DNA from: Sabellastarte sp. h YS-2021
Lineage: Eukaryota; Annelida; Polychaeta; Sabellida; Sabellidae
NCBI GenBank assembly: GCA_964017235.1
Contig: OZ024929.1
Location: forward strand, 111,709,793-111,773,792
Reading direction: 5' to 3'
DNA: 64,000 bases
Shown here: piece after piece, positions 319 through 51,839 of the stretch
Layout of the letters: each line of letters begins with the position of its first letter
Position numbering within the stretch: the stretch's first letter is position 1
Position numbers and translations under genes: made by a program
The notes under the pieces: generated by a model
What the model saw: only the letters and a program-made list of their open reading frames with translations
What the model was told of the DNA's origin: nothing
Database searches by the model: none

Positions 319-405
319 GCGACCATGCCAGGAGAGCTGAGACGAGACACAGAAGCCATCTATCACAAGATGACAGTGGCTGACCTCTACTCAGACATAT
401 CCAAT
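319..405 (+). CDS. M13 peptidase exon A
   Basis: 87 bp, phase 0 to 0, acceptor tttaccag and donor gtaaat. The translation begins [18 protein letters not shown] and ends YSDISN. It matches the M13 N-terminal helical domain segment in which an E/R-rich helix is followed by 'YxKMT'. It is the first visible exon and joins in frame to the exon at 1674. Confidence 0.9.
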
Positions 406-27400: not shown

Positions 27401-30400
27401 TCAGACGGGTTAAAGCCAGACCCAGCAAAGGTGTCCGCAATTGTAAACATGCCATGTCCTAAATGTAAAGGGGATGTCCAAAGATTCCTAGGCATGGTTC
27501 AGTATTTAGGGAAATGGGTTCCAGAGTTAGCTCAAAAAACAACCCCACTACGAGAACTTTTGCATAAACAAAATACGTGGGAATGGACAAATAGGCATGA
27601 CCAAGCATTTAGTTGTATAAAAGAAATACTGACGAGACAACCGGTGATCGCTTATTACGATCCGGATAAGAAAATCAAAATCTCAAGTGATGCATCAAAA
27701 GATGGTTTAGGTGCATGTCTGTTGCAACTTCATGAAGACCAGTGGCGTCCGGTTGCATATGCTTCTAGATCGTTGATACCGGCTGAAACTCGATATGCAC
27801 AAATCGAGAAAGAACTATTAAGCATCGCTTTTGCATGCAGTCGGTTCCATCAGTACATCTATGGTTAAACGTTCATAGCCGAGACGGACCACAAGCCGTT
27901 GATTGGTATCTTTAAGAAATCCTTAAATGACTGTCCGTTAAGGATACAAAGACTCTTGTTGACGCTTCAGAGGTATGACATGACTTTGACATATGTACCA
28001 GGTAAACTGTTAGTAACTGCCGACACCTTGAGTCGTGCAACAGATCCAAATAGGTCTAGTGACCAGTTTAGCAAATCACTTGATGTAGAACTATATGTTA
28101 GTTCCATAGTATCCACCATGCCATTCACAGACAGTAGGCTCAGTGAAGTTAGAGACCAGACAAAGACTGATCGCGTATTATGTACCCTAAAGCAAGTTAT
28201 CTTAGATGGTTGGCCAAACTCCAAGGCTCAATGTGATCCTGATATAGTACCCTTCTGGAACGTTAGGGATGAATTATCAGTTGCTAGTGACATTATATTC
28301 AAAGGATCAAAAATAGTCATTCCAAAAGGTATGCGTAAATCAATTCTTGCCAAAATACATGAGGGACATCAAGGTATAGAGAAATGTAGAAAACGGGGCC
28401 GTGAAGTCCTTTACTGGCCACAAATTAATGCGGATATTGAACAAATGGTGAAAAATTGTAGTTCATGTCTCAAGTTTAGTGCCCAAAAACAGGCTGAACC
28501 ATTGAAACCTCAGGAGATTCCCTTGAGACCATTTCAAAAAGTGTCGAGTGACCTATTTAGCTGTAAGGGCAAAGATTACATGATTATTACTGACAACTAT
28601 TCCTTTTATCCAGAAGTTTTAAAGCTGCCGAATACTTGTGCCTCAAGTGTAATAGAGTGTCATAAAACTGTGTTTGCCAGACATGGAACACCAGATGTTC
28701 TCATGACAGACAATGGTCCACAGTACACAGCTACCGAGTTTAAGACCTTTTCAAAGAGTTGGGACTTTCAACACATTACATCAAGTCCACATTTTCCAAG
28801 TTCCAATGGACTCGCAGAAGTTTCTGTGAAAGTGGTAAAAAACATTCTGTTAAAATGCCATGATAGGGGTGATGACTTTTACAAGTCTCTTCAGGCATAT
28901 CGTGCAACACCACTGGACTGTGGTAAATCACCTGCACAGTTGTTATTCCAAAGACGAATAACGACTTCATTACCAGTCCATCATTCTCTACTAAAGACTG
29001 AAAAGGGAGAAGATATAGTTGATGTCAAAGTGAAAGATAAAGAAAAGTTAAAGTCTAAATATGACAGCCACACAAGATCCAGTACACCTTTCAATCAAGG
29101 TGCACAAGTTTGCATAAGAAACTCGTGTACCGGTAGATGGGACACTCCTGCACGCATAATTAAAGAAGCCGCACCAAGATCTTACGCTGTAATGACAGAC
29201 AGTGGAAGTTGTGTTCGCCGTACCAGTCGACACATCAAGCCTATGTATTCGTGTCGACCCGCAACACCAGTCGCGCCACAGTGCCGGACAGAGGAGAGAC
29301 AATGGGATAACAGCAAAATTCAAACTGAGAACATAAACCAAAGTGAAACTAATGCACAGGATGTGACAAACCTTCAAAGCCCGGATCCTCAGTTGAGCCG
29401 CAAATCAATTAGAGCAGTAAAACCACCTAGAAGATTAATTGAAGAACTGTGACTACCTGTTGTTTGCTAATTTTAGTGACTATACTAATAAATCCAGGAC
29501 GATAGATTAAACTTAAAGTCAAAGGATGACAACAGTAAGAAGACAGTTCTTAAAGACTTTGGACTGATTTATTTGTATTACACTTTGGACTGATAGATTT
29601 ATATTACATTTATTAAAGTTATAAATGTTTCAAAAAAAAAAAAAAGGAAAATGTTACGATAAATATACGTCACCGCCTTAACCAAGGCTACCGTATTTTA
29701 GTAGACTGGGCGAAAAAACAAGACGGTAAATAAACGTGGTTCTATGGATATACTTGTGTTAATATATTCAGTGTCCTCCATACAAACATAACATAGAGGT
29801 TCTTAACTTCTTTGTCATGTAAATCTTAAAACATCATGTCCATTTCAAATATGCAGGTTGTGTTGTCTTTCTGGACCCTGTTTGAATGTGGAATTCCGAA
29901 GTTAATTTGTGAAGTATGAAAGAGACTACTACAGAAATAAATGTTAATGTTTACGTACATGTCTTTGTTACAGATGGTCTACGACACCAACAGTTGTGAA
30001 TGCATTTTACAGTGCCACCAAAAATCAAATCAGTAAGTTCCATTTTTGCATAAATTGTATTTAAACAGTGTATTGATCTGTCCTATTGACTAAGTTGAAG
30101 TGTAATTTTTACCATAATAAAGTATCTGCTATGAGGTTTAAATGATCCAAATTGACATTGTCAAAGATTTTTATTTTTGACTTTTTAAAACAATTTTTTT
30201 AGTACATGTATATATATATCATTGCACATTCTTCTTATTTCTTCATAAAATACAGTAAAATTTGTTGATGAATTTTACAGCAGATCAGGGGCATTGATGA
30301 AGCATGAAGAAATTAGTGCCATTCTCAATTTGAAGGACCTTTAAAAATTGATAAATTACACTGTTTTAGTGTTTTATTTTGTTACATGTAATTTGGAATA

Positions 30401-33400
30401 AAATATTGTGAAATCGTATATTCCATGGGCTATACAGTGACTTAAAAAGTCTATCTGAATTTTCATTGGATCATATAAAATCGATGAATCATATTTTTTT
30501 CATTGTTATTATAATGTAACATATCAAATCAATAAAGTCTACTGAAATCTATCATAAGAAATTACAAAGACATCATACACACTTTGCTGCACTTAGGGAT
30601 TGTAGATCTAATTTTTCTTTGAAGTATAGTGTATATCGATTAATATGTTACACCAAATTTTTCAGTGTTTCCAGCCAGTATTTTGCAGCCTCCTTTCTAT
30701 GATGAACTGTATCCAAAGTAAGTGACAGTGTATACTATTCAGATATTTAGAAGTTTTGAAGTCTTATATAAAAATAACTATGTGGTTGAAATAACTTTGA
30801 CCAAAAGTTTTTGGGAGGTTATGTATGAAGTAATGTATCACACAGCAACATAAAGTTCTTGTGATTTTTGCACTATTTTAAAATCAAGTTAATACTGTTA
30901 GTTTTAGGTTATAAAATTTATCCTGGAAAAGTTTAGGTTGAAATAGTTCAGAGACAATTGTGACATGGTAAAATGTTTGTTAGTATATTTTTAGTAACGT
31001 AATAAACCTAATATTTGATCTTTCACTGCAGTAAATTTTATTTGTGTCAGCACTAAGCAATGTTCTTTTTATCACATGTTTAATGTGTTTCTATAATTAA
31101 CATTTCAAAGTAGAATGGAATATTAAAATTTGGTAAAGTGTGACAACTGAAAAACATTTATTTTTACCACAAGGTCACTGAATTTTGGAGGCATCTCCAT
31201 GGTGATAGGTCATGAGATAACACACGGTTTTGATGACAGAGGTATCAGGCTGTAATTAACAACTGTACCAGTTTCTCCAGCATTCTTTAGTGTTAATTCA
31301 TGCCAAAAGCTGGGATGAAAATGAAGATAACAGCATAATTTTCTCACTGAACAAAGGATGAAATTCTCCATAACAAGTGAAATCTGCAACTTGAAATTAA
31401 ACAAAATTCCTTAAACGCTAGAAACAGGTTTGGCAAATAGAGAAGCTTTAGTGTAACTAGACCCTCCAATATCTACAGGATTTGGTTTTATTTATGCTTA
31501 ACTTCTACTTGTTTCCAGCACCATAGTATGGTGGTTTGGTGATCTCAAGACAACTGGTTCCATTTATTCCTGAATTCCACTTGTACTTCTTCCACTTACA
31601 CAGAGTTGTCTCTAGCCTAAATGAAAAATCTTTACTCAAGTATCCCATAATTCAAAGCCCAATATGGGTCACCTTTACACAAAATGTCATGTGTCACATG
31701 TTACATTTTGTACTCCAGAAGTTTCTCTTCAATGGTAATTGTTGACTAAATAAAATTACATTTCACCAACTGAGTAAAAAGGGTAATAACTAAAGAATTA
31801 ATAAAGATGAATCAACCTGAAGAATGCTATGTGAGAAGATGGTACTGGTGTACATATAACTTAGTTCTTTGTGTAGATGTGTACACTTTTCAAACGATTC
31901 AGCATGACCTTGAGAATTTATCTGGAGTCATCTTAAGTATATTGTAAACTAAAAGAAAACTGATTTATAACTCATTTGGAAAAATTTTTAAAATTGCTGT
32001 TGTATTCATAATATATTATAATTCAAGCACAATTTGAATAATATAGATAACCTAAATCAAAGTAAATGTACATTTTACAATTCAACCCTGAAAAGTTGAA
32101 TATTAAAGGACAAATACTTCTATGTAACCAGGATTTTTGGGTATAAAAATAAATTTCAATGGACTGTGCCATATAAGGGCTTTATAATTATGTCTACTTT
32201 AATAAAAATTCAATTTAAAGTGGTTTGACTTTGTTTGCATATCCTTAAGATGGCCATAACAGTGACTAGATGCCTATACGTTTCCTGTTTTATCTCTATA
32301 TCTGTTTTTCCAGTTCCTTTGTTTCATTGTTAAAAAGTCGAGTAGTCAGCCATATGTAGCTCTGTTATTTTAATTTTCTTTTCAGATAATACAAATTTAC
32401 CCTTCTTATGTATCTGTATGTTCCCAAACAGCTTCATTATCTTGTAAATATTGTATGTCTAGTGTTGTCGTGTTTTTGTGTTACAGAGCTAAAGTGTATG
32501 AAATATTATAACATTTCTTTTATACTGCCAGTTGTACGTAGGATAGTGAACAGATCCATCCATATCTTTATATAATCATTCAGTGATAAAGGCAGAACTA
32601 CCTTTTAAAGTGGAAAAAAAATTGTCACCTTATTCGCTATGTTTTAATAAAACTAAAATTATAACTGAATTTAAAATTTTAACATATACATTAAACTATG
32701 AGAAAAGTGTGGATATTTTTATTGTAGCTTTAATTTGTACCATTACAATGACAATGTTGTTTTATATAGATGTAACTATCTCATCAAATAATTATCACTA
32801 CAAAAATGCTACTTATGTGGCGCTTAATTCTAGAAGAGAGACAAAACATGAATCTCAATTGATGAAAATGTTTTGGGCTCATGTTGTAATAATTCCAATC
32901 ATTTTAACACCATTAAAGCATCTACAAAAACACAGGATTGTATGAGAAGTGTGAACAAGGTCTTATGAAAATCAGTTGTCAGTATATAAAGTCCTTGCAT
33001 GTGCTTGTCCCCCAGGGCCCTGCAGTACAGTGGGGTAGGGATGGCTATAGGCCATGAGTTCTCCCATGGGTTGGATGACAGAGGTATTTTATTGATGTGG
33101 TGTTTATTGGGGTGTGTGTTAAAATGCAAGGAATTGTATGTTTCCAGAGGTCATTACTTCTGTCAAATTCTGAAAAATTAATGTAATATAAACGTAGAAA
33201 ACAGGATAAAGTCCACTAAATTTGATCTACACTAGTGTCAAACTTAACCCCTTGATAACCATGTTTATTGACTGCCAGTCTTTTAAAATTGGCACATCTG
33301 GTGAACGTGCAGTCGTTAGCACTGTAGCCATATCAAACAGAAGTTTGAAATGAAAGAAGAACAAAACATTAGCTCAAGTTTCACAAAAATTCCTTTATAC

Positions 33401-36400
33401 CTGAACTGATTTTTGTTATCTTTGCTTATTTTCTGGTTTACTTTGTGGACACTGTGCCAGTATTGATATTGGACTTGCCTTTAGCCCTTTAGAATTACAC
33501 TATGGCCATTTTACCAACAATCATTAATTAAAATTAAAAAGTGTGCTGGGATTCGATGTTTATACATCCATTTATGAAAATGAATAAAGGAGCCCCTGAA
33601 ATTTGCCTTTTGATAGCTTACATGGTCTGTATCCTATACAACCCAGAATTTCTGTTAGCTGAATTGAATACTGAAGCTCTGCAGGGGTTTCAGAGAATTA
33701 CTCAATTGTTGTGTAAGTGCTGAAAAAATCAAATAGTGGTTCTCAGTCACAATATCTGTGTCCTATTTGGCTTGGCGTGCAATTTGTGTCCATGTTTAAA
33801 ATGTTACTGTCTTGTAGAGGATAATTGGTGGTTTTGATGAATGTGATCATCATAATGCTCAGACTATGTCACTTTTTTATTTTGAATCAAAGTATAACTT
33901 GTCTCAAACAAATAATGTTTGGTTTTAAAATTGAACATCACAGTAATATCTTCTTGAAACTACAATTCTTTGTTATTCTTGCTTTGTGTTTTGGATTGAT
34001 CTATTGTTTATATGTTTATCCATGACAATGTATATTGTACAGTAACATATTTGTATGTATTGAGCCCAATTAATACTACCAACAAAATAAATTGAAATTA
34101 ACATGTCCTCTCACAGGAAAATTTGAATGGTAATGGACAAGTTAAAGTTTAGTTCAGCAATAACAAGCTTTTTCAATGTTTACTGACATTAACTATCGTG
34201 TAGAATGAGGTAAAATACTACTCAAGTTGTATGCAGTAAACCCACCAAATTTGACAGGCCTTAAGCTCATTAGTCAAATGAGTTTCGAGCATGTTTGCTT
34301 TTCATATCATAAACTAATGGGACCCTATGCACAAAAAGGATAAATTCCAAAAAAAAAGCAACTATAATTCTTTTTAAAAATTGAAATGATACTTCATGCC
34401 ATGTACATAAAATAGTTTTTCAGAGGTATAACTGTGAACTTGATGAAAATATAAGGAATTGGGATATAAAGTTTGTCACAATCATAAATAGCGTCATATC
34501 GTAATCCAACATGTTACAATTTGAAGTAAAACCTACATGCTTTATAACCCCAGTCAACCATACACTATGCGCTGGACATTCTTCATTTTCTTCATGGACT
34601 TTTGACTCCCAACATTTCATCTTGAGCCAATAAAATGTCAATTTACTGTGATTTCTGTTCAGATCACTGACTTATGGAGGAATTGGAATGGTTATTGGTC
34701 ATGAAATTTCTCATGGTTTTGATGATCAAGGTATAGTCAACATCTCAAGTATCACAGACCACATGTAGCATGAAAGCACACATGACACAATCAGTTTATT
34801 TTCTTATTACCCCCACCAAGGAGGTTTATGTAATTGCCAGTGTGTGTTTGTTTATTTGTTTGCAAAATAATTACCTCCGCCAAGGAGGTTATGTTTTTGC
34901 CTGGGTTTGTTTGTTTGTGAGTTTGTTCGTGAACAGAATCACTCAAAAACTTATGGACGGATTTTGATGAAATTATCAGGATATGTGTGAAAAGGTAAAA
35001 GGAAGAAATGATTCAATTTTGAGAGTGATTCGGATCACTATCTGGATCTTCTGGATCCATGAAATGTAATTTTAAAGACAGATAACTCAAAAAGTTCTGG
35101 ACGGATTTTGATGAAATTTTCAGGATATGTGCTCCCTTGGCGGAGGTCTGCGCTCTCTGAGTGCTCTTGTTTGAAAAGTTACAGGCAGATTTTAATTTAA
35201 CATTCAGGAAATATTGACAATGGCACAAGGAATAGATGATTATAAAGACCGGAAGTGCGCAGTGAACGAAAACCCGTCTGTGTGCATAGAATCAGCTGGG
35301 AGTAAAACCTCCAATAACCGCCCGCTGAAAAACGGAAGAGTCGTTCCGAATTTCTCGTTTGGAAATTCCTCCACTTTTTTTCGAGGGCGATCATGCATTC
35401 AAAACAAAATGGTAGCTCCCTTGTTTGTGTCACCTCGTAAAAATAAAGGGATATTTCTTTCAACCAGGTAGGCCGGTCTTTATAATAGTAATAAATACCT
35501 CATGCTCGGGCATTTGTTACAGGATATACGCCCGGCAAAAATTCCTTAATAATGCCCTCGCGCCTGACGGCGCTCTGGCATTATTTGAAATTTTTGCCGG
35601 GCGTATATCCTGTAACAAACGCCCTCACAATCGGTATTTATTACTACATTAAATTTGATGGTGATCCAGATCACCATCTGGATCTAGGAATGTTTTGAAG
35701 AATTTTATATAATTGCACTCACAAGCTATGTTGGAGGTGTTGGGCCTTTGCAGAAGTATGCACTCTCCGAGTACTCTTTTCATTCAAGGATACCTTGCTG
35801 AAATGTTGGTAGAAACTCAATATCAGATGGGCATAGGGAGGAGGGGAAGCTGAATTGCATTTTGTTGTACTCACAAGGTTTTTGACAATGAAGCAAAACA
35901 TATCTCTTTTGCCATTTCTTAAATGGTAAAATTCCAGTTTAATGGTTAAGTGATGCATATTAATATGTTTCAGAATAAATTAAAAATTGACAGGCCTATT
36001 CATTTTCATTTATATGGTGTATGAATTCCATTTCCAGCAAGTACTTCCCAATTTTAACAGTCATTTATATGATACTGGGCCTTATAGATACTAAAACTTG
36101 CAATGTCAAGTGATAACATGTGTTGGTGGTTAATATTCCCATTGCCTGCAAGTAGAGGTCAAATTGTTGTTTAATACTGTAACATATTGGATTTGTTTTT
36201 ATAGTCATTGGAGGGCCATGGTGGCACAGGGGTAACACACTCGCCTCCCACCTATGAGATTGGAGTTCAAATCCCGTCCCAACTTTAAGTGGGAAAGCTG
36301 GTAGTTGCTTGCCATTGGTCAAAAGTTTACAGTACAGAAACTTGACCAACTGTATGTACTGGTTTCTTCTGCCCTTTCAACTATCCATCACAATGTAACC

Positions 36401-39400
36401 AGTAATGATACTAGGCTTGACATAAAACACCAAATAAATATATTTTAGAGCCATTGACAGGTAATCGGATGGATGTAGTTTTGTGGCTAGTATAAAGCCT
36501 AAAACATGCCGCATTTGGTATAAATAAAAGTGATATCTTTTAAATAAAAAGTAACAGGATACATGTTGTGATTCTTGATTTATGGTACAATGTATTCATT
36601 CTCTGTCTGTTGGTGTGGCTACCAAGCATTGGGTTTTCATAATTATCAGCTGATTATTTTTATTATTATTATTATTAAATTACTGGTTAATGCTAGTTTT
36701 TTTCTATGTATATTTATGGGCACTTACATTTAGAAATCACACCACACATTTCTGGTTATTTGAAAGACATCATAATAAAGGGCCTGAATAATTAATAGTT
36801 TGGTGTTTGTTTTCTATATGTAGAATATTTAATATCCCTTTGAAGCACTTTAGGCAATAATTTATTCTTTTATGAGATACAATATATGTATATTATCAAG
36901 TAATACTTACATTTGTTTTATTGTACTTTAATATTAAAAGTATTAACTGAAGAGCTTACATTGAATGTCATTTTGCTGGATGTGTATTTATCTGGGATTC
37001 AATGTTTATTTTATTTTCCAAAAGTACTTTTAGTTCTGGAGTGTGAACACTATATTTTGTGGAATTTTTCTGCTGAATCTTTGTAATAAATAAATTTGAC
37101 CTCATCTCCATTCAATGACAGTAAAATGGTAATCTGTGACAGTAGTATACTTGACTTATGTGAAAAGGGAGATCAATAACCTTTTTGAATTTATGACATT
37201 AATATTAAAACAGTAAGTTGTGCAGATAGAAATACATAAAATTAATAAGATATCAGTTTACATGTCAGGTTTAAACTTAATAAAGATTCAAAGGTGTCAT
37301 ACTGAAGAGCGTACAGCAGTTAGAGTACAATGAAAAAGCTAGAAATCTTTGAAAGTTTTGTATTTTTTGTCAGTGTTTATATCATGGATAGATTCTTATC
37401 ATCTAATACATTATCATTTCTTATATTTTAATGTATAGTTTTCTCAGTCATACTTGAAAAGGTTTGACTACTTCATAGTGCAAAATATTTATGTTTAATC
37501 AAACTCATGAAGCTAACCTTTGGATGTAATGCTTTCTTCCAGGGCGTCAGTTTGACAAAAATGGTAACCTGCAGCAGTGGTGGTCTGACAGTGTGATAGA
37601 CAAGTTTAAGGAGAGAGCTCAGTGTATTGTTGATCAGTACAGTAACTATACTGTGAAAGAAGTCAACCTCAATGTAAGTGGACACACTTTTTACATACAG
37701 TGTCATAACTCCTGTAAGTTGAACTATGTTAAAGTAGAAATCCCCTTTAAGTAGAATATATGGTAATACGGGATCCAAAGATGGCTTTTCCCACTGTAAA
37801 TTAGACTCTGTTATCTACAAATCATGGTACAGTTTCAACTTAAGTCATTGTATTTTTGTGCTGAGAGAATGTAAACCATCATGATAGAGACCTCATTACA
37901 TTGCAAAGTCAAGGTCAGGAGTATCTCTAGTTGTTGTATACTTTTGGCAAATGGTCACTTGGGTCTCACTTCTGTGGTCTTGAGCTTATTTGTTTATTTG
38001 GGGTTTTACATCGCTTTCAATACTGTACTGATCATATCCTGATGGGTAGTTTTATGAGCAGAGGAAACCAGTCAAGGTTCTGTACTGTAAACTGCCGACC
38101 ATTGGTATGCAACTACCAACTTTCCCACATAAGGTCTGGGGTTTGAACATGTGGAAAATACTGTGTAGTGACATCTCCCAATGTGTTGCTCATGATTTAA
38201 AGAATGGTTAAAAAGTCCAAACTGACAAAACATTGGGAGTAACACTATAAAATTTGTAAGAAAGCTTGCCCAGAAACAAAAGATTACATGGACTCCTTAA
38301 ATCTACATGTACATTTTGTAATCACGGAGTAAACTTTGAAGTTTAAGTTGAAGATGCTTTCAACAATTGCTATGGTATTGTGCTGGAAAATTGTGGTAGT
38401 AATATAAATTTGACTTCAGAATTGGCTTTACCTTACATTCATCATCTTGAATAACACATTTTTTTACAATAGTTTATAATGGTGGAAAAACCAACTATGG
38501 CTTTTAATGGTCTGCAAACTGTTAACCAATCTAATGATTATTTTCAAGCAGAGTGTTACTATATTCGGTCCAGATGTAAACTCTGAAATTACAACCCCCT
38601 GCCCTCAACCTTTGAGATGCGTTTTCATTCTGTGAGCCCAATATCTCCTCAAAATCTACCCTTGAGTCTTCAGTGGATTTGGGTACAAAAAGCAGATGAT
38701 CAGTTTCATATGTAGCTGTGATTCATATATAGCTGTGATAGTCTATTTGACAACACATAATTTCTATTACGTTGTCTTTTTTAAAATTCAGTCATTAAAA
38801 TTTTTATTTTATCTTTAGATCAATGGGAGGCAGACACAGGGTGAAAACATAGCTGATAATGGTGGCCTGAAGCAGTCATTCAGGGTAAGGCCTGTGTTTG
38901 AGTATTGTTGACAGTAATACAGTATGCTCTTATTAAAGCAAACCTATTGAGTAGGCTGTTTAGAAACAGGGGTATCTTTACCCGGAGACATGAAATGCAG
39001 CTCAGGTTTAAGCAGGGTGGAATTACAACATTAAGTTCTTCAGAGTGTAATCATTCAGCTATTTTTCCATATTAATTAATTTTATCAAGTTACAGTAAAA
39101 TGTAACTTAACTTTTTCAATAAGGTTTTATAGTCTGCTTTATAGTGGATATGCCTAGGGTTTGGTGACTATATGTTTATTTTGAAATGAAGATTAATATT
39201 TAAATGCATCTTAGGTAACACTGCATTTTGTGATATTATATTAGTGTACACTGTATTTATAACTGCAATGCTTGATAAACTGGAGTCACAGTCTAGGTTT
39301 TGAAAATTATTTCTGTTTAGGAGAGATCACTAGCACAATGAAAATGTTATTTTTACTCTCTTAAAGGCATACAGAAAATGGGTCAACAGTCAAGGTAAAG

Positions 39401-41048
39401 AAGAGGATGCTCTTCCTGGTATTAACCTCACACACAACCAGTTATTTTTCCTCAACTTTGCACAGGTAAAACCAAGGGTTTTTCTTTGTATTTTGTAAAA
39501 TTTATTTGGCAAAAGTGTAAGTGATTAAAATAAGTGCGAGGCTATGGATGATATTTAAAATATGAAGTAAACTGATGAATATACTGGTGGCATTACTGTT
39601 ACTGATTCTATTTTTGGATTCTTAGTTTTAAGTATTTTTTACTGACTGGGCAATTTAAACTCTACAAGATCTACAGGAGGTAGTAAAGGAAACAAAATTG
39701 TAAAAGTATTAATTTAATGTGTATAAAGGAGACCAACTTTAAATTCGATGTATCATGTAATACGGATATGCCCAGCCAAGGGAAGGCCAAAGTTATTGAA
39801 ACCTGTGAAGTAGACTCTGGAACCAGGGACCTCCTACCTCCTTGTCCCAACTTTTCTACCACAAGCGAGCAACAGGATAAATTTATCTCTCATTTCTGTG
39901 TCATAATTTAGCAATTCATCTCACCATTCTATATTGTAGATCTGGTGTGGTTCAGCTAGACCAGAGAGCTACATCCAAGCCATCCGATCAGGGAGACACA
40001 GCCCTGGCAGATTTAGGTAAGTCTCTGTGGTCATTGAATGTTTTACTTCTGTCTTTTTTAAATGTTAAGCATGTATTCATGTTACTGAAAGTGCTCTGTT
40101 TTATATGTTTTACAATTGAGAAGATTATAAAAACCCACAGAGTCAAGGTGGAATAAATAACTGATACACTGAAAGATATAGTGCTTAAAGCTTCAGGGTA
40201 TAGTCCCTCATATTGAAAACAAGTCTGTATGTAAACATGTCAATAAAAATGTCAGAGCTGTCACATATAAAGTGTTGTCGAACTTTCTACAATATTTAGG
40301 TAATATGTTCCCTTAAATGTGAAAAATTAACTTTATTATAATACAGACTTTTAAAATAAAATATGAAGAGACTTTTGTATAAATAAAAATAATACAAAAA
40401 TAGGGATTATACTTTTCATGTTGAAATAGGGGCCATGGTGGGGTGGTGGCAACACACTCCCCTCCTACATCTGAGGTTGGCGGTTTAAACCCCAGACCTG
40501 ATGTGGGAAAGTTTGTAGTTGCTTACCGATGGTTGGCAGTTTACAGTACAGAACCTTGACCAACTGTATGTACTGGTTTCCTCTTCCCACAAAACTATCC
40601 GTTGTGATATGACCTGCAGTGTATTGAAAGTGACGTAAAACCCAAAATAAATTTAATGTTGAACATTAGTGTTACAGTTGATACGAGCCATTGCAACACT
40701 CCATGGCACAAATTACACAAGGAATGGTATAACCGTTAGTAGAATTTTGTGAACATAGACATGATGTCTTGTTTGTTAAATTCACTAAGATTTGGTATAC
40801 CATTGATGTATTTAATTTGAGGTTATAATATTCATTAAATGGCATGCCACTCAACTGTGTTGATGTTAAAGTACCTGGAATTTGAGACATAACATCACAA
40901 ATTTAGCATTGCCAAAAACACTTTATCCTTGTCGTTTCTTACATCTAGGGTGATAGGTTCTCTGTCCAACTCCTATGACTTTGCTGAAGCCTACAATTGT
41001 CCTGTTGGGAGTCCTATGAACCCACGCAGCAAGTGCTCTGTGTGGTGA
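319..41048 (+). CDS. M13-family zinc metallopeptidase (neprilysin/ECE-like), 3' part, with two alternative-exon cassettes
   Basis: Gene model joined from exons 319-405, 1674-1810, (3930-4029 or 9587-9680), 15967-16095, 21701-21799, 23097-23174, 24092-24195, 29974-30032, 30666-30717, (31174-31241 or 33016-33083 or 34663-34730), 37543-37673, 38819-38884, 39367-39465, 39940-40016, 40949-41048. With the 94-bp version of cassette 1 the sum is 1380 bp (459 residues plus stop); with the 100-bp version it is 1386 bp. Family hallmarks appear in order: VNAFY (substrate-backbone site), HExxH with downstream [15 protein letters not shown] (third zinc ligand Glu), [18 protein letters not shown], and the C-terminal CSVW. 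M13 enzymes are type II membrane ectoenzymes that cleave small peptides such as hormones and neuropeptides; location is inferred because the N-terminus is absent. The C-terminal wording ([14 protein letters not shown]) resembles ECE-type and invertebrate neprilysins. I do not assign a specific orthologue. Confidence 0.93.
406..1673 (+). other. intron A-B with satellite block
   Basis: 1.27 kb intron. About 548-1490 is a tandem repeat block listed separately. The rest (406-547 and 1491-1673) shows nothing recognisable beyond the acceptor tttacag. Confidence 0.85.
548..1490 (+). repeat. truncated family-A copy: 147-bp tandem repeats plus two 153-bp units
   Basis: Four units of about 147 bp start with aagcacttttaag (551, 698, 844, 992; next start 1139). 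They carry 'tttgaccttgaag', 'caaggtcaaatc' and 'cccatgacttcctat'. Two further units (about 1165 and 1318) start 'gtggcggccatcttg'. The same units occur in the same order in the family A copy at 55242-58288 and reversed at 13030-13860, so this is a fragment of that element. Long open frames here are by-products of the periodic sequence. Confidence 0.85.
1674..1810 (+). CDS. M13 peptidase exon B
   Basis: 137 bp, phase 0 in and 2 out (last codon begins 'ag'), donor gtaagt. It encodes [14 protein letters not shown] ... [15 protein letters not shown] ... TPK. The 'V-x-Y-x-P-x-Y' segment is characteristic of the M13 N-domain. The trailing two bases are completed by either version of the next exon position. 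Confidence 0.92.
2070..2185 (-). pseudogene. 5S rRNA-like sequence (5S-derived SINE or pseudogene)
   Basis: On the minus strand the core reads gaagttaagcggca ... ggcttagtactgggatggg tgacc. This matches the internal promoter half of 5S rRNA (box A 'AAGCTAAGC'-like, box C 'GGATGGGTGACC'-like). Flanks do not form a complete 5S gene. An A-rich stretch lies nearby at about 2204-2222. It is probably a 5S-derived SINE or retro-copy and not a functional gene. Confidence 0.6.
2190..3425 (+). other. intron B-C' proximal part, nothing recognised
   Basis: AT-rich non-coding sequence. I see no splice-framed homology to M13 proteins and no clear repeat. Short open frames here lack any recognisable composition. 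Confidence 0.6.
3430..3730 (-). repeat. degenerate F-family ('ggatccagatc') relics
   Basis: Two weak copies (about 3440-3500 and 3600-3720) of the 'gatccagatc / tggatcc' repeat that is well preserved at 34805-35172 and 51840-54725. The end of the second resembles the reverse complement of the 'gtttgtttgtttg' segment of F. Heavily diverged. Confidence 0.45.
3930..4029 (+). CDS. M13 peptidase alternative exon C' (cassette 1, version 1)
   Basis: 100 bp, acceptor atttttcag, donor gtaagc, phase 2 in and 0 out. Joined to exon B it encodes (R)[13 protein letters not shown] ... [14 protein letters not shown]. It aligns along its length with the exon at 9587-9680, which encodes VLANYLLW ... AARQIYNK at the same place in the protein and with the same phases. 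Version 1 is two residues longer, in a K/S/D/P-rich middle. Both versions are open and have good splice sites, so they look like mutually exclusive exons. No transcript evidence is available here. Confidence 0.88.
4030..5335 (+). other. intron C'-C, proximal part
   Basis: No exon recognised. 4110-4540 has repeated 'gattgga / ccaatc' words in both orientations, suggesting an old foldback element, but I cannot set its ends. The rest is AT-rich and unremarkable. Confidence 0.5.
5340..5800 (-). repeat. degenerate F-family element
   Basis: Minus-strand reading gives 'ttcaaggaggatatgtttttg', followed by a T/G-rich stretch, 'gcagattttgatgaa', then 'ggatccagatc'-like words. This is the same order as the better-preserved F element at 34871-35172. 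Strongly diverged. Confidence 0.55.
5976..7023 (+). mobile_element. 1.05-kb non-autonomous DNA element with 11-bp terminal inverted repeats
   Basis: Begins atctcccgcct (5976-5986) and ends aggcgggagat (7013-7023), perfect 11-bp inverted repeats. The interior has no coding potential. It holds two units containing 'cctcattttgaaaaac' and 'aaaatggccgccat' followed by 'gggttatcctatt' and 'ccttatatctccc'. These words are also shared with the family A satellites. The superfamily cannot be determined from the ends alone. Confidence 0.75.
7024..7394 (+). other. intronic spacer
   Basis: AT-rich sequence between the TIR element and family C. Nothing recognised. Confidence 0.6.
7395..8935 (+). mobile_element. 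family C hairpin-ended satellite element (left copy)
   Basis: Starts at a T-run, then a perfect 18-nt palindrome at 7407-7424 (acagcccttaagggctgt) flanked by tacccc/ggggta. About 6.5 tandem units of about 146 bp follow (7550-8500). Each contains 'tatatctcggaaaccgtaag', 'tgataettgg'-type text (tgatacttgg) and 'tgatttgacctttgacctt'. A non-repetitive tail runs about 8700-8935. The whole structure recurs in reverse orientation at 58565-59816, which sets the boundaries. No protein is encoded, so it is a non-autonomous element of uncertain class. Confidence 0.75.
8936..9586 (+). other. intron C'-C, distal part
   Basis: AT-rich intronic sequence up to the acceptor actatacag. No further copy of the cassette-1 exon and no repeat recognised. 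Confidence 0.6.
9587..9680 (+). CDS. M13 peptidase alternative exon C (cassette 1, version 2)
   Basis: 94 bp, acceptor ctatacag, donor gtaatg, phase 2 in and 0 out. It encodes (R)[15 protein letters not shown] ... [13 protein letters not shown]. It is interchangeable with 3930-4029: same phases, same flanking junctions. If both were spliced together the second would read ggt gct cgc taa, an immediate stop. The family A element begins only 112 bp after its end. Confidence 0.9.
10250..13030 (+). repeat. 155-bp tandem satellite inside family A
   Basis: 'agctataaca' recurs every 155 bp (10461, 10616, 10771 and onward), about 18 units. Each unit has the order ctacttttggg, agctataacatag, tttcagacctgtagctc, gagtaatagctac, gagtaaatc, 'aactattgcattta', 'atatgttattc'. 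Units differ by a few substitutions, so this is an old but homogenised array. Confidence 0.9.
13030..13860 (-). repeat. 147-bp tandem satellite inside family A
   Basis: Reverse-complement versions of the units at 548-1140: 'aggatagccaaact', 'cttataactcgcttattatt', 'ggtcctagaggttt', 'atcatgggctgggaat'. About 5.6 units. Apparent open frames here are periodic artefacts. Confidence 0.88.
14100..14119. repeat. terminal hairpin of family A
   Basis: agtgcccgttcacgggcact is a 9-bp perfect stem with a 2-nt centre. The identical structure is at 55254-55273 in the other copy. It sits 12 bases from the element's inferred end. Confidence 0.85.
14395..14610 (+). mobile_element. possible tRNA-derived SINE remnant
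   Basis: 'tggcatagtagtaacacacctgc' resembles a tRNA A box, and 'ggttctgggttcaaatg' about 45 bases later resembles a B box. This matches the clearer SINE copies at 36210 and 40429. The tail is diverged. Confidence 0.45.
14611..15966 (+). other. intron C-D, distal part
   Basis: AT-rich sequence with poly-T/A runs (15170-15280). No exon or defined repeat seen. Ends in the acceptor ctgtccccag. Confidence 0.6.
15967..16095 (+). CDS. M13 peptidase exon D
   Basis: 129 bp, phase 0 to 0, donor gtaagt. It encodes [16 protein letters not shown] ... [20 protein letters not shown]. 'YGT-x(5)-RWRxCV' and 'AxGRMFV' are M13 N-domain signatures. The Cys corresponds to a conserved disulphide cysteine in the family. 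Confidence 0.93.
16446..16890 (+). repeat. 64-bp minisatellite, 7 units
   Basis: 'tgattgaagaactaata' recurs at 16447, 16511, 16575, 16639, 16703, 16767 and 16831, a strict 64-bp period with very few differences between units. Near-identity indicates recent expansion or homogenisation. Intronic, between exons D and E. Confidence 0.92.
17126..17180 (+). repeat. GC-rich 9-bp minisatellite
   Basis: 'ggctccgcc / ggctccggc' repeated five to six times in otherwise AT-rich DNA, just inside the hairpin end of family B. A shorter version on the opposite strand is at 63625-63655. Confidence 0.85.
17510..18430 (+). repeat. 168-bp tandem satellite inside family B
   Basis: 'cttatatctcgaaaac' recurs at about 17521, 17688, 17857, 18025 and 18194, with a diverged unit at 18363. 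Each unit has 'gatagagcgatttcgacg', 'cagggtatctctgcagag', 'ttttgtctcgcc' and the palindromic aaaatggcggccatttt. Open frames on both strands are repeat by-products. Confidence 0.92.
18440..21115 (+). repeat. 133-bp tandem satellite inside family B
   Basis: About 20 units with 'agctttcac' spaced 133 bp (18451, 18584, 18717 and onward). Order in each unit: 'gtgaagtttcagacccatag', 'ttactcacctactc', 'gagtaaatgcgaattatctc', 'agtattgcagat', 'attcacctacttttggg'. Most units are near-identical. Variant units (for example about 18780-18840, 19990-20040 and 20770-20830) share the same substitutions, indicating higher-order structure. Confidence 0.93.
21701..21799 (+). CDS. M13 peptidase exon E
   Basis: 99 bp, phase 0 to 0, acceptor atttttag, donor gtaagg. 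It encodes [16 protein letters not shown] ... [15 protein letters not shown]. 'WMDxxTRxxAxEK' is an M13 hallmark. Confidence 0.94.
21800..23096 (+). other. intron E-F with a short tandem repeat
   Basis: 1.3 kb intron. About 22040-22255 has an irregular tandem of 'gtgaattcacata / ctgtggtgaatttcac' words. The remainder shows no exon or known repeat. Confidence 0.7.
23097..23174 (+). CDS. M13 peptidase exon F
   Basis: 78 bp, phase 0 to 0, acceptor ctttttag, donor gtacat. It encodes [15 protein letters not shown] ... LNADYEG. 'KIGYPD' is strongly conserved in M13 enzymes. Confidence 0.93.
23175..24091 (+). other. intron F-G
   Basis: AT-rich. About 23820-23960 contains 'gcaactaccaactttcc' and 'ttttgaaccca', resembling a decayed minus-strand copy of the tRNA-SINE at 36210. 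Otherwise nothing recognised. Confidence 0.5.
24092..24195 (+). CDS. M13 peptidase exon G
   Basis: 104 bp, phase 0 in and 2 out, acceptor gtttgcag, donor gtgagt. It encodes [16 protein letters not shown] ... [11 protein letters not shown] plus two bases of a Lys codon. 'YFEN' and 'LRKPVDK' match the M13 segment just before the WxxxPxxVNAFY block. Confidence 0.93.
24222..24716 (+). mobile_element. 495-bp MITE with long inverted ends
   Basis: Starts gggcccgtattcatgaaag and ends as its imperfect inverse (acctttcgtgaataagggccc). Subterminal 'cttaactttaagactgg' also appears inverted or repeated. The interior is AT-rich and non-coding with an 'atggccgccata' word. A degenerate relative lies at 41430-41800. 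Confidence 0.8.
24717..25079 (+). other. intron G-H spacer
   Basis: AT-rich sequence between the MITE and the LTR element. Nothing recognised. Confidence 0.6.
25085..25226 (+). repeat. 5' LTR (142 bp)
   Basis: Begins tgttacgat and ends cataaca (TG...CA). Every base I compared matches 29652-29793. It includes 'cgccttaaccaaggc', an imperfect inverted repeat. No obvious TATA box. Confidence 0.95.
25227..25240 (+). other. probable primer-binding site
   Basis: tggtgtcaga immediately after the LTR matches the first ten bases of the tRNA-Leu type primer site used by many Mag-clade elements. The match then stops, so the assignment is moderate. Confidence 0.6.
25359..27335 (+). pseudogene. Gag, protease and N-terminal reverse transcriptase of the LTR element (truncated by frameshift)
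   Basis: 658-residue open frame. The likely true start is the second Met at 25404. Residues about 30-200 are capsid-like. Zinc knuckles have C250, C253, H258, C262 and C269, C272, H277, C282. The protease has DTGA at 346-349. The reverse transcriptase has LPYG at 601-604 and the catalytic 'MDDIIVYG' at 630-637. The frame ends abruptly just after the catalytic motif at 27333-27335. RT homology resumes at once in another frame, so a single-base loss near 27330 is inferred. In intact relatives Gag and Pol are one frame, so this is damage and not the normal Gag-Pol junction. Confidence 0.9.
27336..27868 (+). pseudogene. reverse transcriptase thumb and RNase H part of pol, ending at a nonsense codon
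   Basis: Continues RT ('KLNKDKCK', '[15 protein letters not shown]') into connection and RNase H ('[15 protein letters not shown]', 'AYASRSL', 'IEKELLSI', 'FHQYIYG'). The stop at 27866-27868 lies in the RNase H domain, and homology carries on in the same frame after it ('AETDHKPL'). It is therefore a point nonsense and not a natural end. Confidence 0.88.
27869..29452 (+). pseudogene. RNase H C-terminus and integrase of the LTR element
   Basis: Open to 29452 in the same frame as the preceding segment. Counting from the Met at 27899: the HHCC zinc domain has H154, H157, C187, C190. The integrase triad is D218 (SSDLF), D271 (MTDNGP) and E307 (GLAE), with 35 residues between the second Asp and Glu as expected. 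The C-terminus has '[10 protein letters not shown]' and is basic, with no chromodomain seen. All catalytic residues are present, but the frame is cut off from Gag by the upstream lesions. Confidence 0.9.
29630..29651 (+). other. polypurine tract
   Basis: A-run followed by ggaaaa immediately before the 3' LTR, the usual plus-strand primer position in LTR elements. Confidence 0.85.
29652..29793 (+). repeat. 3' LTR (142 bp)
   Basis: Same length and same sequence as 25085-25226. Followed by the tagag target duplication. Confidence 0.95.
29974..30032 (+). CDS. M13 peptidase exon H (VNAFY exon)
   Basis: 59 bp, phase 2 in and 1 out, acceptor tgttacag, donor gtaagt. It encodes (K)[19 protein letters not shown]. 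The Asn-Ala-Phe-Tyr segment corresponds to the NAYY/NAFY motif, whose Asn and Ala bind the substrate backbone in M13 peptidases. Confidence 0.95.
30033..30665 (+). other. intron H-I
   Basis: AT-rich, with a short 'tatatatat' stretch near 30210. Nothing else recognised. Confidence 0.7.
30666..30717 (+). CDS. M13 peptidase exon I
   Basis: 52 bp, phase 1 in and 2 out, acceptor atttttcag, donor gtaagt. It encodes (M)[16 protein letters not shown] plus 'aa'. 'FPAxILQPPF' is one of the most conserved M13 blocks and directly precedes the zinc-site exon. The 'aa' must be completed by the first base of one of the three alternative exons. Confidence 0.95.
31174..31241 (+). CDS. M13 peptidase alternative zinc-site exon K1 (cassette 2, version 1)
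   Basis: 68 bp, acceptor ttaccacaag, donor gtatca, phase 2 in and 1 out. It encodes (K)[22 protein letters not shown](G). Zinc ligands His and His and the catalytic Glu (HEITH) are intact, as is FDD. Of 23 residues, 18 match K3 and 13 match K2. Confidence 0.92.
31242..33015 (+). other. intron between K1 and K2
   Basis: 1.77 kb of AT-rich sequence. A 120-codon open frame at 32583-32945 is probably chance: it has no recognised domain and lies inside the intron. No additional zinc-site exon seen. Acceptor for K2 is gcttgtcccccag. Confidence 0.7.
33016..33083 (+). CDS. M13 peptidase alternative zinc-site exon K2 (cassette 2, version 2)
   Basis: 68 bp, acceptor gtcccccag, donor gtattt, phase 2 in and 1 out. 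It encodes (K)[22 protein letters not shown](G). HEFSH keeps the zinc ligands and catalytic Glu. It is the most divergent of the three, with Ser for Gly, Ala for Val, Phe for Ile and Leu for Phe around the active site. It has higher GC than its surroundings, so it looks maintained as coding sequence. Confidence 0.92.
33084..34662 (+). other. intron between K2 and K3
   Basis: 1.58 kb of AT-rich intronic sequence. No repeat or exon recognised. Acceptor for K3 is atttctgttcag. Confidence 0.7.
34663..34730 (+). CDS. M13 peptidase alternative zinc-site exon K3 (cassette 2, version 3)
   Basis: 68 bp, acceptor tctgttcag, donor gtatag, phase 2 in and 1 out. It encodes (K)[22 protein letters not shown](G). 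HEISH and FDD are intact. It is the version closest to typical M13 enzymes and the last before exon L. Confidence 0.93.
34805..35172 (+). mobile_element. F-family element ('ctccgccaaggagg' ends)
   Basis: Two starts, cccccaccaaggaggttt (near 34809) and ttacctccgccaaggaggtt (34871). Interior: 'gacggattttgatgaaatt', 'gatccatgaaatg' and a second 'ctggacggattttgatgaa'. End at 35134-35172: cccttggcggaggtctgc and gctctctgagtgctcttgttt. The acctccgccaagg / ccttggcggaggt inverted ends are near-perfect. Non-coding. Confidence 0.75.
35173..35800 (+). mobile_element. F-family relic split by a composite foldback insertion
   Basis: 35173-35239 and 35647-35800 read as the two parts of one diverged F element ('cagattttaattt...attgacaatggcacaagg', then 'ggtgatccagatcacc', ending 'cactctccgagtactctt'). 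Between them lies an insertion, listed next. Confidence 0.6.
35240..35646. mobile_element. composite foldback/MITE insertion
   Basis: First part: attataaagaccgg (about 35240) matches the inverse ccggtctttataat (about 35474-35487). Second part: tagtaataaatacc (35486-35499) matches the inverse ggtatttattacta (35633-35646). The second part has long arms containing 'acaggatatacgcccggc' and 'gccgggcgtatatcctgt' around a central gcgcctgacggcgc. Non-coding. Confidence 0.8.
36210..36450 (+). mobile_element. tRNA-derived SINE
   Basis: A box 'gtggcacaggggtaacac' near 36221 and B box 'ggagttcaaatccc' at 36262-36275 have tRNA spacing. The body ends 'acaccaaataaata'. It shares body words ('accaactgtatgtactggtttc') with the copy at 40429. 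Confidence 0.8.
36451..37542 (+). other. intron K3-L, distal part
   Basis: AT-rich, with a short ATT microsatellite at about 36658-36677. No further copy of a zinc-site exon seen. Acceptor is tgctttcttccag. Confidence 0.65.
37543..37673 (+). CDS. M13 peptidase exon L
   Basis: 131 bp, phase 1 in and 0 out, donor gtaagt. It encodes (G)[13 protein letters not shown] ... [16 protein letters not shown] ... NLN. It follows the HExxH exon, giving the continuous 'DDxGRxFDKxGNLxxWW' of M13 enzymes. The Cys is the conserved disulphide partner. Confidence 0.95.
37674..38818 (+). other. intron L-M with minus-strand SINE fragment
   Basis: About 38030-38165 reads on the minus strand as a partial copy of the 36210 SINE ('gtcaaggttctgtactgtaaac', 'gcaactaccaactttccc', 'gtttgaac'). 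The rest is AT-rich with nothing recognised. Confidence 0.6.
38819..38884 (+). CDS. M13 peptidase exon M (third zinc ligand)
   Basis: 66 bp, phase 0 to 0, acceptor atctttag, donor gtaagg. It encodes [22 protein letters not shown] in part as [12 protein letters not shown]. The Glu of ENIAD is the third zinc ligand and the Asp stabilises the first His in M13 peptidases. Confidence 0.96.
38885..39366 (+). other. intron M-N
   Basis: AT-rich, nothing recognised. Confidence 0.7.
39367..39465 (+). CDS. M13 peptidase exon N
   Basis: 99 bp, phase 0 to 0, acceptor tcttaaag, donor gtaaaa. It encodes [18 protein letters not shown] ... [12 protein letters not shown]. 'LPGxxLTxxQLFFLxFAQ' is a typical M13 C-terminal block. 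Confidence 0.95.
39466..39939 (+). other. intron N-O
   Basis: AT-rich. A possible minus-strand SINE scrap lies at about 39790-39860 ('tggaaccagggacctccta'). Nothing else. Confidence 0.55.
39940..40016 (+). CDS. M13 peptidase exon O
   Basis: 77 bp, phase 0 in and 2 out, acceptor atattgtag, donor gtaagt. It encodes [15 protein letters not shown] ... RHSPGRF plus 'ag'. It carries the conserved WCxxxRPE motif. The Arg/His-Ser-Pro segment follows, as in other M13 enzymes. Confidence 0.95.
40429..40655 (+). mobile_element. tRNA-derived SINE, second copy
   Basis: Starts 'gggccatggtggggtgg' and has a B-box-like 'gcggtttaaacccc' near 40480. It shares 'accaactgtatgtactgg' and the tail 'aaaacccaaaataaat' with the copy at 36210. 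More diverged in the A box. Lies in intron O-P. Confidence 0.75.
40949..41048 (+). CDS. M13 peptidase terminal exon P
   Basis: 100 bp to the stop, phase 2 in, acceptor acatctag. It encodes (R)[19 protein letters not shown] and [13 protein letters not shown], then TGA (41046-41048). The C-terminal CxxW is the universal end of M13 enzymes, so the stop is the true end. Confidence 0.96.
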
Positions 41049-50853: not shown

Positions 50854-51839
50854 GTCAACTTTCCCACTTGAGACAAGGGTCAATATTGGAATTATGACCT
50901 TATGGGTATACCATGAGGGTTATCCACTGTACCGCCATGCCTCCTTCAGGTAGTAGTAATTAAACTTGTATTACTATAATGAAGAGTGTGTCAGACTATT
51001 GTGTATTTTAATATATTTATATCACCATACTCTTCTTGTTTTAATATCTTTCATGTTCACCGATTTATTCTTGAAGCTGTCCCCAGATGGCACCCCTGGA
51101 TAAATTATACGTGTATCGACAAGGAGTACTACCTTGTAACAAAATGTAGAATAATTGATTAATCAGAGTACAAAATTGGGGGGAAAGAGAATTCATTTCA
51201 TATCAGTAGATTTCCCAATTATTTTCATGAAAGCAGACTAAATTTAGTCATGCTTTAACATTTGTATGAAAATAATGCAAATTATGGCCATTTTATGCTA
51301 AAAAAGGCATGTTTTCAAGAGTAATGGTAAGGAGTACTTGAGTTCAAAAGTTATTAGTCTTTCCAGCCCAGGACTGATAATCATTACCAGAAATAAAAGT
51401 TGGTACCAAAAATTACTGAAAAGGTTCTGTACACCTCTCACAGACTGACATACTACTGAGAAGATATCCAGTCATTTGATGCTATGGATTGTATTTACTT
51501 GGGTAAACATTCTGTACTGTATTCTGACATTGGCCAGAGACTGAAAAGTTTGCTATTTAAGGACAGGACAGAGATTTGATTTGAGAGACATTTGGAGGAA
51601 AGAGAATGGACCATTCTATTAATTTAGATCCCATGATATATGACAAGCCAAACCCACTTGAGATGGCAGTAAATGATAGATAACTAGACATTGCGTCTCG
51701 ACGCAGTGTATCCCCGGATGGGACATAGTTAAGGTGTGAATATGTCGGGCTTGAGCCTGTTTCCTGGAGCACCAGGTCAGGATTCTCCATAGTGTCAGAT
51801 TACTTCCAAAAGCTAATCACTAGTTGTTTCACTTATATC
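50854..51839 (+). other. spacer, with a possible DIRS scrap
   Basis: Non-coding. About 51755-51790 ('agcaccaggtcaggattctc') matches 47687-47712 of the DIRS element, so a small fragment may be present. Otherwise nothing recognised. Confidence 0.5.

Follow-up and report, generated by a model that had tools for sequence, protein, structure and literature searches.

Three zinc-site exons in one M13 peptidase gene of a sabellid annelid: a probable mutually exclusive cluster

One gene of the M13 (neprilysin) family in the genome of Sabellastarte sp. h YS-2021 contains three homologous exons that each encode the catalytic HExxH segment, and its reading frame stays open when exactly one of them is included. 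We consider it probable that these exons form a mutually exclusive cluster that tunes the substrate choice of the enzyme. Judged from the coding sequence, three enzymes that differ in the shape of the active site could probably be made from this one gene.

Anatomy of the gene and its zinc-site exons

The window, i.e. the whole stretch of 64,000 nucleotides of contig OZ024929.1 that was analysed, contains three zinc-site exons:

Zinc-site exon A, 31174..31241, plus strand: 68 bp, HEITHGFDD, the canonical-like copy
Zinc-site exon B, 33016..33083, plus strand: 68 bp, HEFSHGLDD, the most divergent copy, with Ala at the position of neprilysin Val580
Zinc-site exon C, 34663..34730, plus strand: 68 bp, HEISHGFDD

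All three have AG directly before and GT directly after them, share the same phase, carry an intact HExxH and stand in an equal frame relation to the neighbouring exons at 30666-30717 and 37543-37673. The zinc ligands and the catalytic Glu are intact in every copy, and B and C also retain the Asp-Asp and both splice sites. The sequence-only reading had described three open 68-bp exons with shared phase and these catalytic residues, and this description is borne out. A repeat search recovered the copies as a direct repeat family with three members of 74 nt; compared with copy A, the other two are 68% and 76% identical. The repeat stops a few bases beyond the exon edges. Because 26-36% of the coding sites differ between copies and the repeat is bounded by the exon edges, an assembly duplication is ruled out as their source. 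For the zinc exons, two tandem genes are ruled out as well, since each neighbouring exon occurs once in the window and the 80 kb upstream. A six-frame HExxH scan of the 64-kb window found no M13-type zinc segment besides A, B and C, and tblastn with the three segments against the window and the 80 kb upstream gave no extra copy of note.

The zinc exons sit in a single plus-strand gene, which begins before the window and reaches to 41048. Its assembled isoforms with A, B and C match Pfam Peptidase_M13 with 240.1, 230 and 242.6 bits, respectively (cut-off 24.5), and Peptidase_M13_N is matched with 135.8 bits. HExxH, ENIAD, NAFY and the terminal CxxW, which we take to be functional motifs of M13 enzymes, are all present and aligned with those of relatives, the closest named one being the annelid Ridgeia piscesae. 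Further exons of the gene are:

Exon X5, 319..405, plus strand: M13 match
Exon X6, 1674..1810, plus strand: M13 match
Exon X7a, 3930..4029, plus strand: candidate alternative exon, 100 bp, AG/GTAAGC, phase as X7b
Exon X7b, 9587..9680, plus strand: 94 bp, the form near relatives
Exon, 15967..16095, plus strand: M13 match
Exon, 21701..21799, plus strand: M13 match
Exon, 23097..23174, plus strand: M13 match
Exon, 24092..24195, plus strand: M13 match
Exon, 29974..30032, plus strand: M13 match, NAFY motif
Common upstream exon, 30666..30717, plus strand: single copy in the window and 80 kb upstream
Common downstream exon, 37543..37673, plus strand: single copy in the window and 80 kb upstream
Exon, 38819..38884, plus strand: M13 match, ENIADNGG, presumably the region of the third zinc ligand
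Exon, 39367..39465, plus strand: M13 match
Exon, 39940..40016, plus strand: M13 match
Last coding exon, 40949..41048, plus strand: ends KCSVW-stop (terminal CxxW)

The earlier statement that the flanking exons occur once therefore holds for the two adjacent exons, but not for the gene elsewhere. Upstream of the zinc exons, an alternative pair of 162/162 bp covers the region of the first Cys motif, the 100/94-bp pair X7a/X7b belongs to the N-terminal domain, and a dead exon copy, X3', carries four stops; these two pairs and the relic had escaped the sequence-only reading. A genome search with X7a returned X7a alone and must be regarded as insensitive, because X7b was missed too. M13 enzymes feature an N-terminal type II membrane anchor, and for this region weak tblastn matches lie upstream of the window near -12965 (hydrophobic, E 0.069) and -10743 (CLTASCVKT, E 2.2).

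Reading frame and mode of splicing

Eight inclusion sets were tested. The three sets with a single copy leave a 384-codon frame open, whereas the other five (no zinc exon, any of the three pairs, or all three) shift the frame and lead to stop codons, which agrees with the earlier proposal of a gene able to swap its active-site core. As in mutually exclusive clusters, A, B and C are homologous and lie next to each other, agree in length and phase and have kept their splice sites, and the reading frame is broken by skipping or multiple inclusion. The introns that separate the copies measure 1774 nt (A-B) and 1579 nt (B-C) and are too long for steric hindrance, which is ruled out as the mechanism of exclusion. 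A search for intron pairing of the docking/selector type in six intron pairs found longest complementary runs of 14-19 nt, none longer than the largest of 12 shuffles each. Out of 9 consensus positions, the donors of the three exons have 5, 6 and 6 matches; among the 19 other donors of the gene (range 5-9), 14 have at least 7. A 182-nt joined query for a spliced retrocopy of isoform B matched just the three separate exons.

We propose that an old tandem duplication of the HExxH-carrying exon would have given rise to A, B and C. All three would be spliced in vivo by a regulated choice, and the full enzyme would be produced only from mRNA with exactly one zinc exon, while skipped or multiple inclusion would lead to stop codons and to removal of the message by nonsense-mediated decay. 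Each choice would supply a complete catalytic set with an altered wall around the zinc site.

Other M13 loci and relatives

A loose search of the 1.79-Gb genome revealed 11 other places with a zinc exon and no second zinc exon at any of them, and the downstream neighbour exon has matches at nine other places. The zinc exons of these loci measure 68 bp in all nine cases measured and each is the only one found nearby, so that the segment looks like a normal exon of the family that was multiplied in the A/B/C gene. Domains and motifs are likewise those of the neprilysin/ECE family. This gene has more than one zinc exon, and no other such place appeared in the loose genome search or among the literature matches listed.

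Copy A is nearest to relatives (20/22 residues identical to Ridgeia P0001) and shares the Asn at exon position 3 with 121 of 122 of them. Copy B has seven residues that are rare among 127 relatives, and at near-invariant positions it shows Gln for Asn3, Ser for Gly5 and Leu for Phe19; its seven departures from near-invariant sites could mean relaxed constraint. Copy C has two rare residues, Thr3 and Ser16. One relative, P0035, possesses three of the seven rare residues of B, and every other of the 127 rows has at most one; its total identity is higher to A (13/22) than to B (11/22, counted by eye). The reading frame of P0035 lies on a single contig of 1,593 nt, although the corresponding exons here extend over 19 kb. 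No public protein with the rare residues of B was found in two further isoform-B searches (3/3 and 6/10 candidates), which is a weak negative given so few candidates.

The active-site pocket

We take the zinc exon to correspond by alignment to positions 571-592 of neprilysin, with the numbering based on an assumed chain start. Position 580 in this alignment is Val in A, Ala in B and Val in C. According to two sources, the S1' residues of neprilysin include Met579 and Val580 (PMC6060874), and position 580 belongs to the S1' pocket (PMC6060874, PMC11997989). The swapped segment covers both of these positions by alignment and would line the pocket, as expected for a substrate switch of the coq-2 type. 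The earlier observation that residues near the site differ is upheld, and the changed positions appear to include an S1' residue. With a different wall near the zinc site, position 580 included, the isoforms most likely differ in the peptides they cleave.

Divergence of the copies and alternative explanations

Synonymous divergence between the copies is near saturation (pS 0.70-0.92; 22 codons, about 15 synonymous sites), pN amounts to 0.13-0.26, and A, B and C contain no stops. Synonymous and nonsynonymous change differ in all three copy pairs (Fisher p 0.0015, 5.6e-5 and 3.1e-7), with pS 0.92 vs pN 0.20 in the B-C pair. On this comparison, amino-acid change between the copies is restrained despite near-saturated synonymous sites. 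The ratio pN/pS is 0.38 in the dead copy X3' and 0.34 in the A-B pair, and because of this resemblance pN/pS alone is no proof of present constraint.

It is improbable that exon A alone contributes to the protein and that B and C are still-open relics of old exon duplications, even though A is the copy closest to relatives, the rare residues accumulate in B and C, and the same gene harbours a dead copy. Under neutrality 22 codons remain stop-free with a frequency of 0.35-0.54, which is not rare alone, and when as many changes as observed were distributed at random (20000 trials), the exon was still open with HExxH in 0.013 (A-B), 0.056 (A-C) and 0.013 (B-C) of trials. However, B and C have kept frame, zinc ligands, Glu, Asp-Asp and splice sites at near-saturated synonymous sites, the B-C pair shows the discrepancy between pS and pN given above, and in neutral simulations from A (5000 per distance) the fraction open with HExxH fell from 0.018 at distance 0.5 to 0.0004 at distance 1 and to 0/5000 at distance 2.

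We give hardly any credence to B or C as regulatory poison or decoy exons, whose pairing with A would cause frameshift, decay and less enzyme irrespective of the residues they encode: a poison exon needs neither HExxH nor a restrained protein sequence, yet both are kept in all three copies, and a single B or a single C yields a full-length M13 match, despite the weak donors and the stop that every double inclusion hits. Less easily set aside, though still unlikely, is an alternative use in which the exon chosen affects the catalytic rate, stability, inhibitor sensitivity or localisation of the isoform and not its substrate choice, B being for example slow or near-inactive. This explanation overlaps with the preferred one and changes its last step alone; the altered positions 3, 5 and 19 of B speak for it, the intact zinc ligands and Glu against it, as does Val580 as a described S1' residue (PMC6060874). 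Mutually exclusive use of A, B and C with an influence on substrate choice is the explanation we retain.

Comparison with known systems

No M13 or HExxH gene with an alternative zinc-site exon was among the literature matches listed, a scope that left most subscription literature outside, and to this extent the earlier view that M13 precedents are missing still stands. The insect Serpin-1 is an inhibitor, not a protease, and is not known to have a metal site. It is nevertheless similar to the M13 gene in the duplicated, alternatively spliced exons that provide functional diversity to a protein of proteolysis (PpSerpin-1; PMC12758981). PGM1 likewise has old, duplicated paralogous enzyme exons that are both kept, but it uses alternative promoters and first exons, and the exon that is swapped does not contain the catalytic serine (PMC7101342). 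Tandem duplicated exon substitutions in human KHK, ACOX1 and PKM resemble the M13 gene in their homologous exons, of which each transcript contains one; the copies mostly agree in their ligand residues, and in KHK one catalytic arginine lies inside the swapped region (PMC9741552).

Novelty does not extend to the general device, because alternative exons that remodel the core of an enzyme are already known, e.g. from coq-2, whose mutually exclusive exons in C. elegans, helminths, annelids and molluscs swap a core part close to the active site, an exchange that is linked to a change of substrate (PMC7434440, also for what follows). In contrast to the M13 gene, coq-2 encodes a different enzyme, has two exons instead of three, and exchanges two helices of a putative substrate tunnel, not a catalytic metal-ligand motif; its splicing is supported by RNA-seq (PMC7434440), whereas the three M13 exons are known from genomic sequence.

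Implications

A bolder and tentative reading, quite possible although on balance we would not expect it, is that A/B/C combine with the 162/162-bp and 100/94-bp pairs, so that the gene makes as many as 12 full-length enzymes whose active-site walls differ, and that the zinc-site swap is old and shared with another animal (P0035, with its B-type residues). Such a combinatorial peptidase gene would be the equivalent, among proteases, of genes with several mutually exclusive clusters.

Neprilysin-type enzymes help to set the lifetime of many peptide signals, and animals commonly diversify M13 peptidases through duplication of whole genes. Here, one gene seems to have multiplied just the exon of the catalytic metal site instead. 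A, B and C may represent naturally occurring variants of the active site within one constant scaffold, in which the influence of position 580 and other S1' residues would be directly testable.

Three zinc-site exons in one M13 gene

An M13 (neprilysin-family) gene had been described, from the sequence alone, as holding three interchangeable 68-bp exons for its zinc site, and the three exons are borne out at the following positions, each preceded by AG, followed by GT and encoding 22 residues without a stop:

31174-31241, plus strand, zinc-site exon A
33016-33083, plus strand, zinc-site exon B
34663-34730, plus strand, zinc-site exon C

An independent repeat search recovered them as a three-copy family with edges a few bases beyond the exons, and a six-frame HExxH scan of the window found no M13-like zinc segment besides these. 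The plus strand between 9587 and 41048 yields a 384-residue protein with a stop directly after the terminal CxxW; isoforms A, B and C match Pfam Peptidase_M13 at 240.1, 230 and 242.6 bits (cut-off 24.5), and each matches Peptidase_M13_N at 135.8 bits. With 80 kb upstream of the window added, the gene reaches about 8.1 kb upstream of the window and about 670 residues in total, and beyond that point a membrane-anchor exon and a CLTASCVKT exon are each weakly matched. The better-fitting donor of another exon, X4, is GTAAAG, after GCAAAT.

The frame is retained with exactly one of A, B and C, while none, any two or all three lead to a frameshift and stops. The proposed swappable active-site core, with A, B and C as candidate alternatively spliced exons, is likely in its main lines. 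The introns around the zinc exons measure 456, 1774, 1579 and 2812 nt, which leaves enough room for splicing between the copies, and shortage of space is not what separates them. Complementary runs between introns are 14-19 nt long and in none of six intron pairs exceed the largest of 12 shuffles; since they fall within the shuffle range, they lend no support to pairing RNA structures. Of the 9 positions of the donor consensus, the three zinc exons have 5, 6 and 6 in agreement; among the other donors of the gene, 14 of 19 agree at 7 or more. If exclusivity is enforced, the simplest means would be the frame together with decay of wrong products, and a regulated choice among the three would be an additional layer above this.

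Age and constraint of the copies

Over 22 codons, with only about 15 synonymous sites, the copies differ at synonymous sites in a proportion of 0.75 (A-B), 0.70 (A-C) and 0.92 (B-C), and at nonsynonymous sites in a proportion of 0.26, 0.13 and 0.20, respectively; a separate calculation came to almost identical values. In a simple neutral simulation started from A (5000 copies), the fraction still open and with HExxH was 0.018 at distance 0.5, 0.0004 at distance 1 and none at distance 2. In a less severe control, in which no more changes than were observed are placed at random (20000 trials), an open HExxH was retained in 0.013 (A-B), 0.056 (A-C) and 0.013 (B-C) of the trials; amino-acid identity as high as that seen between the copies was attained in 0.008 (A-B), 0.0001 (A-C) and none (B-C).

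The same gene contains a dead copy of its GGWPVLD exon (-959 to -831, negative positions being upstream of the window start; locus L002), in which four of 43 codons are in-frame stops, and which is a useful control for the appearance of decay. Because its pN/pS is 0.38, at a pS of 0.50, this ratio alone cannot tell live from recently dead copies; A, B and C are set apart from it by intact splice sites and frame at a greater synonymous distance.

Relatives of the three exons

The nearest named relative is a protein of the annelid Ridgeia piscesae (P0001, 74%). Among 122 relatives, Asn3, Thr16 and Phe19 of the exon are conserved in 121, 120 and 122, respectively. Exon A is as in the relatives save for Ser8, exon C has the rare residues Thr3 and Ser16, and exon B has seven rare residues among 127 rows (Gln3, Ser5, Val7, Ala10, Phe15, Ser16 and Leu19). 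Three of the seven (Gln3, Ser5, Ala10) are found in a related protein, P0035; of the other rows, two have one each and 124 have none.

The reading frame of P0035 is 309 residues long and lies on a contig of 1,593 nt (source 'jgi'). Since the exons that it matches in this gene are spread over 19 kb, it stems either from spliced RNA or from a copy without introns. In a tree of proteins without the zinc exon, comprising 23 chosen relatives and this gene, P0035 is paired with another related protein, P0003 (support 0.89), and the pair falls in a clade that also includes this gene and Ridgeia (support 0.71). The shared residues hint that B-type exons may be old and in use. P0035 could instead be a paralogue whose zinc exon evolves rapidly. 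Over the full segment it shares more residues with A (13/22) than with B (11/22). Two protein searches with isoform B found no B-like exon among only 3 and 10 candidates.

M13 zinc exons elsewhere in the genome

A search of this animal's genome (1,785,957,881 bases) with the zinc-exon region gave 26 exon matches. These include eleven zinc-segment places outside the window, each the only one that this loose first search found in its neighbourhood. All nine measured zinc exons with a clear HExxH are exactly 68 bp with AG/GT, and 68 bp is thus the usual zinc-exon size in this genome; the remaining two places have HEMVH and, on contig C8, no HExxH in the matched frame. A sensitive search of the whole 17-kb stretch around the zinc exon of one paralogue gave a single zinc exon. 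Within this genome three zinc exons are found only in this gene, by a loose search that diverged extra zinc exons beside other paralogues could escape.

An M13-like match at C8:51016531-51016656 (L028) has GEEVF in place of HExxH and is perhaps an inactive family member. Contig C3 carries an M13 gene cluster at 16.07-16.67 Mb (L012, L013, L015-L017, L019, L026, L027, L029-L032, L034), in which near-identical zinc-exon pairs lie on opposite strands at 16.445/16.549 and 16.375/16.617 Mb, as if by inverted duplication.

Further duplicated exons and repeats

Two other exons of the gene are present in pairs:

-8134 to -7973 and -4595 to -4434, two 162-bp copies of the DPCEDFF-motif exon, both open with splice sites (contig C3, around 111,701,660 and 111,705,202, L002)
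3930-4029, 100-bp copy of the ANYLLWR exon
9587-9680, 94-bp copy of the ANYLLWR exon

The 162-bp copies share 29 of 53 residues (pS 0.87, pN 0.31), and inclusion of both would keep the frame; elsewhere in the genome this exon has ten matches, no two of them closer together than 70 kb. The ANYLLWR copies share 12 of 31 aligned residues (pS 0.92, pN 0.41, two unmatched codons excluded by hand), and since both lengths leave remainder 1 modulo 3, this pair would also be exclusive by frame. If all clusters were used independently, 2 x 2 x 3 = 12 isoforms would be possible, which is arithmetic and not observation.

The window also contains the following repeats:

25085-29794, LTR-element-like insertion in an intron, flanked on either side by an exact 143-nt direct repeat, and with an inner reading frame that looks integrase-like by eye
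10381-13030, tandem array, period 155 nt
18449-21119, tandem array, period 133 nt
51836-54642, tandem array, period 280 nt
56284-57706, tandem array, period 155 nt
61098-62817, tandem array, period 133 nt

The 133- and 155-nt arrays recur inverted at the window's other end (consensus units compared by eye), which suggests a large inverted arrangement.

Probable consequences for the active site

By alignment with 1dmt, the exon corresponds to residues 571-592 of neprilysin, in a numbering for which we assume that the 1dmt chain starts at 54. Because it spans these residues, each exon brings the catalytic glutamate, the two histidines and two residues of the S1' pocket, whose residues determine which amino acid is accepted just after the cleavage point. 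A passage of PMC6060874 gives this pocket as Ile558, Phe563, Met579, Val692, Trp693, Val580 and Arg717, and an overlapping list appears in a passage of PMC11997989. At one S1' position, by alignment, B carries alanine where A and C carry valine, which should widen the pocket. Since the exons carry S1' residues and B has this alanine, the A, B and C isoforms would be expected to prefer different peptides, in keeping with the tuning of substrate choice that the sequence-only reading had offered as a possibility.

In coq-2 of helminths, annelids and molluscs, alternative exons remodel the enzyme core and accompany a substrate switch, according to a passage of PMC7434440, and a passage of PMC12758981 refers to duplicated exons in serpin-1. 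No M13 or HExxH case with alternative exons was found among the matches listed in the open-licence literature. As a device the arrangement is of a familiar kind, but its site is new and unusually central, and the gene combines three copies of this exon with additional clusters.
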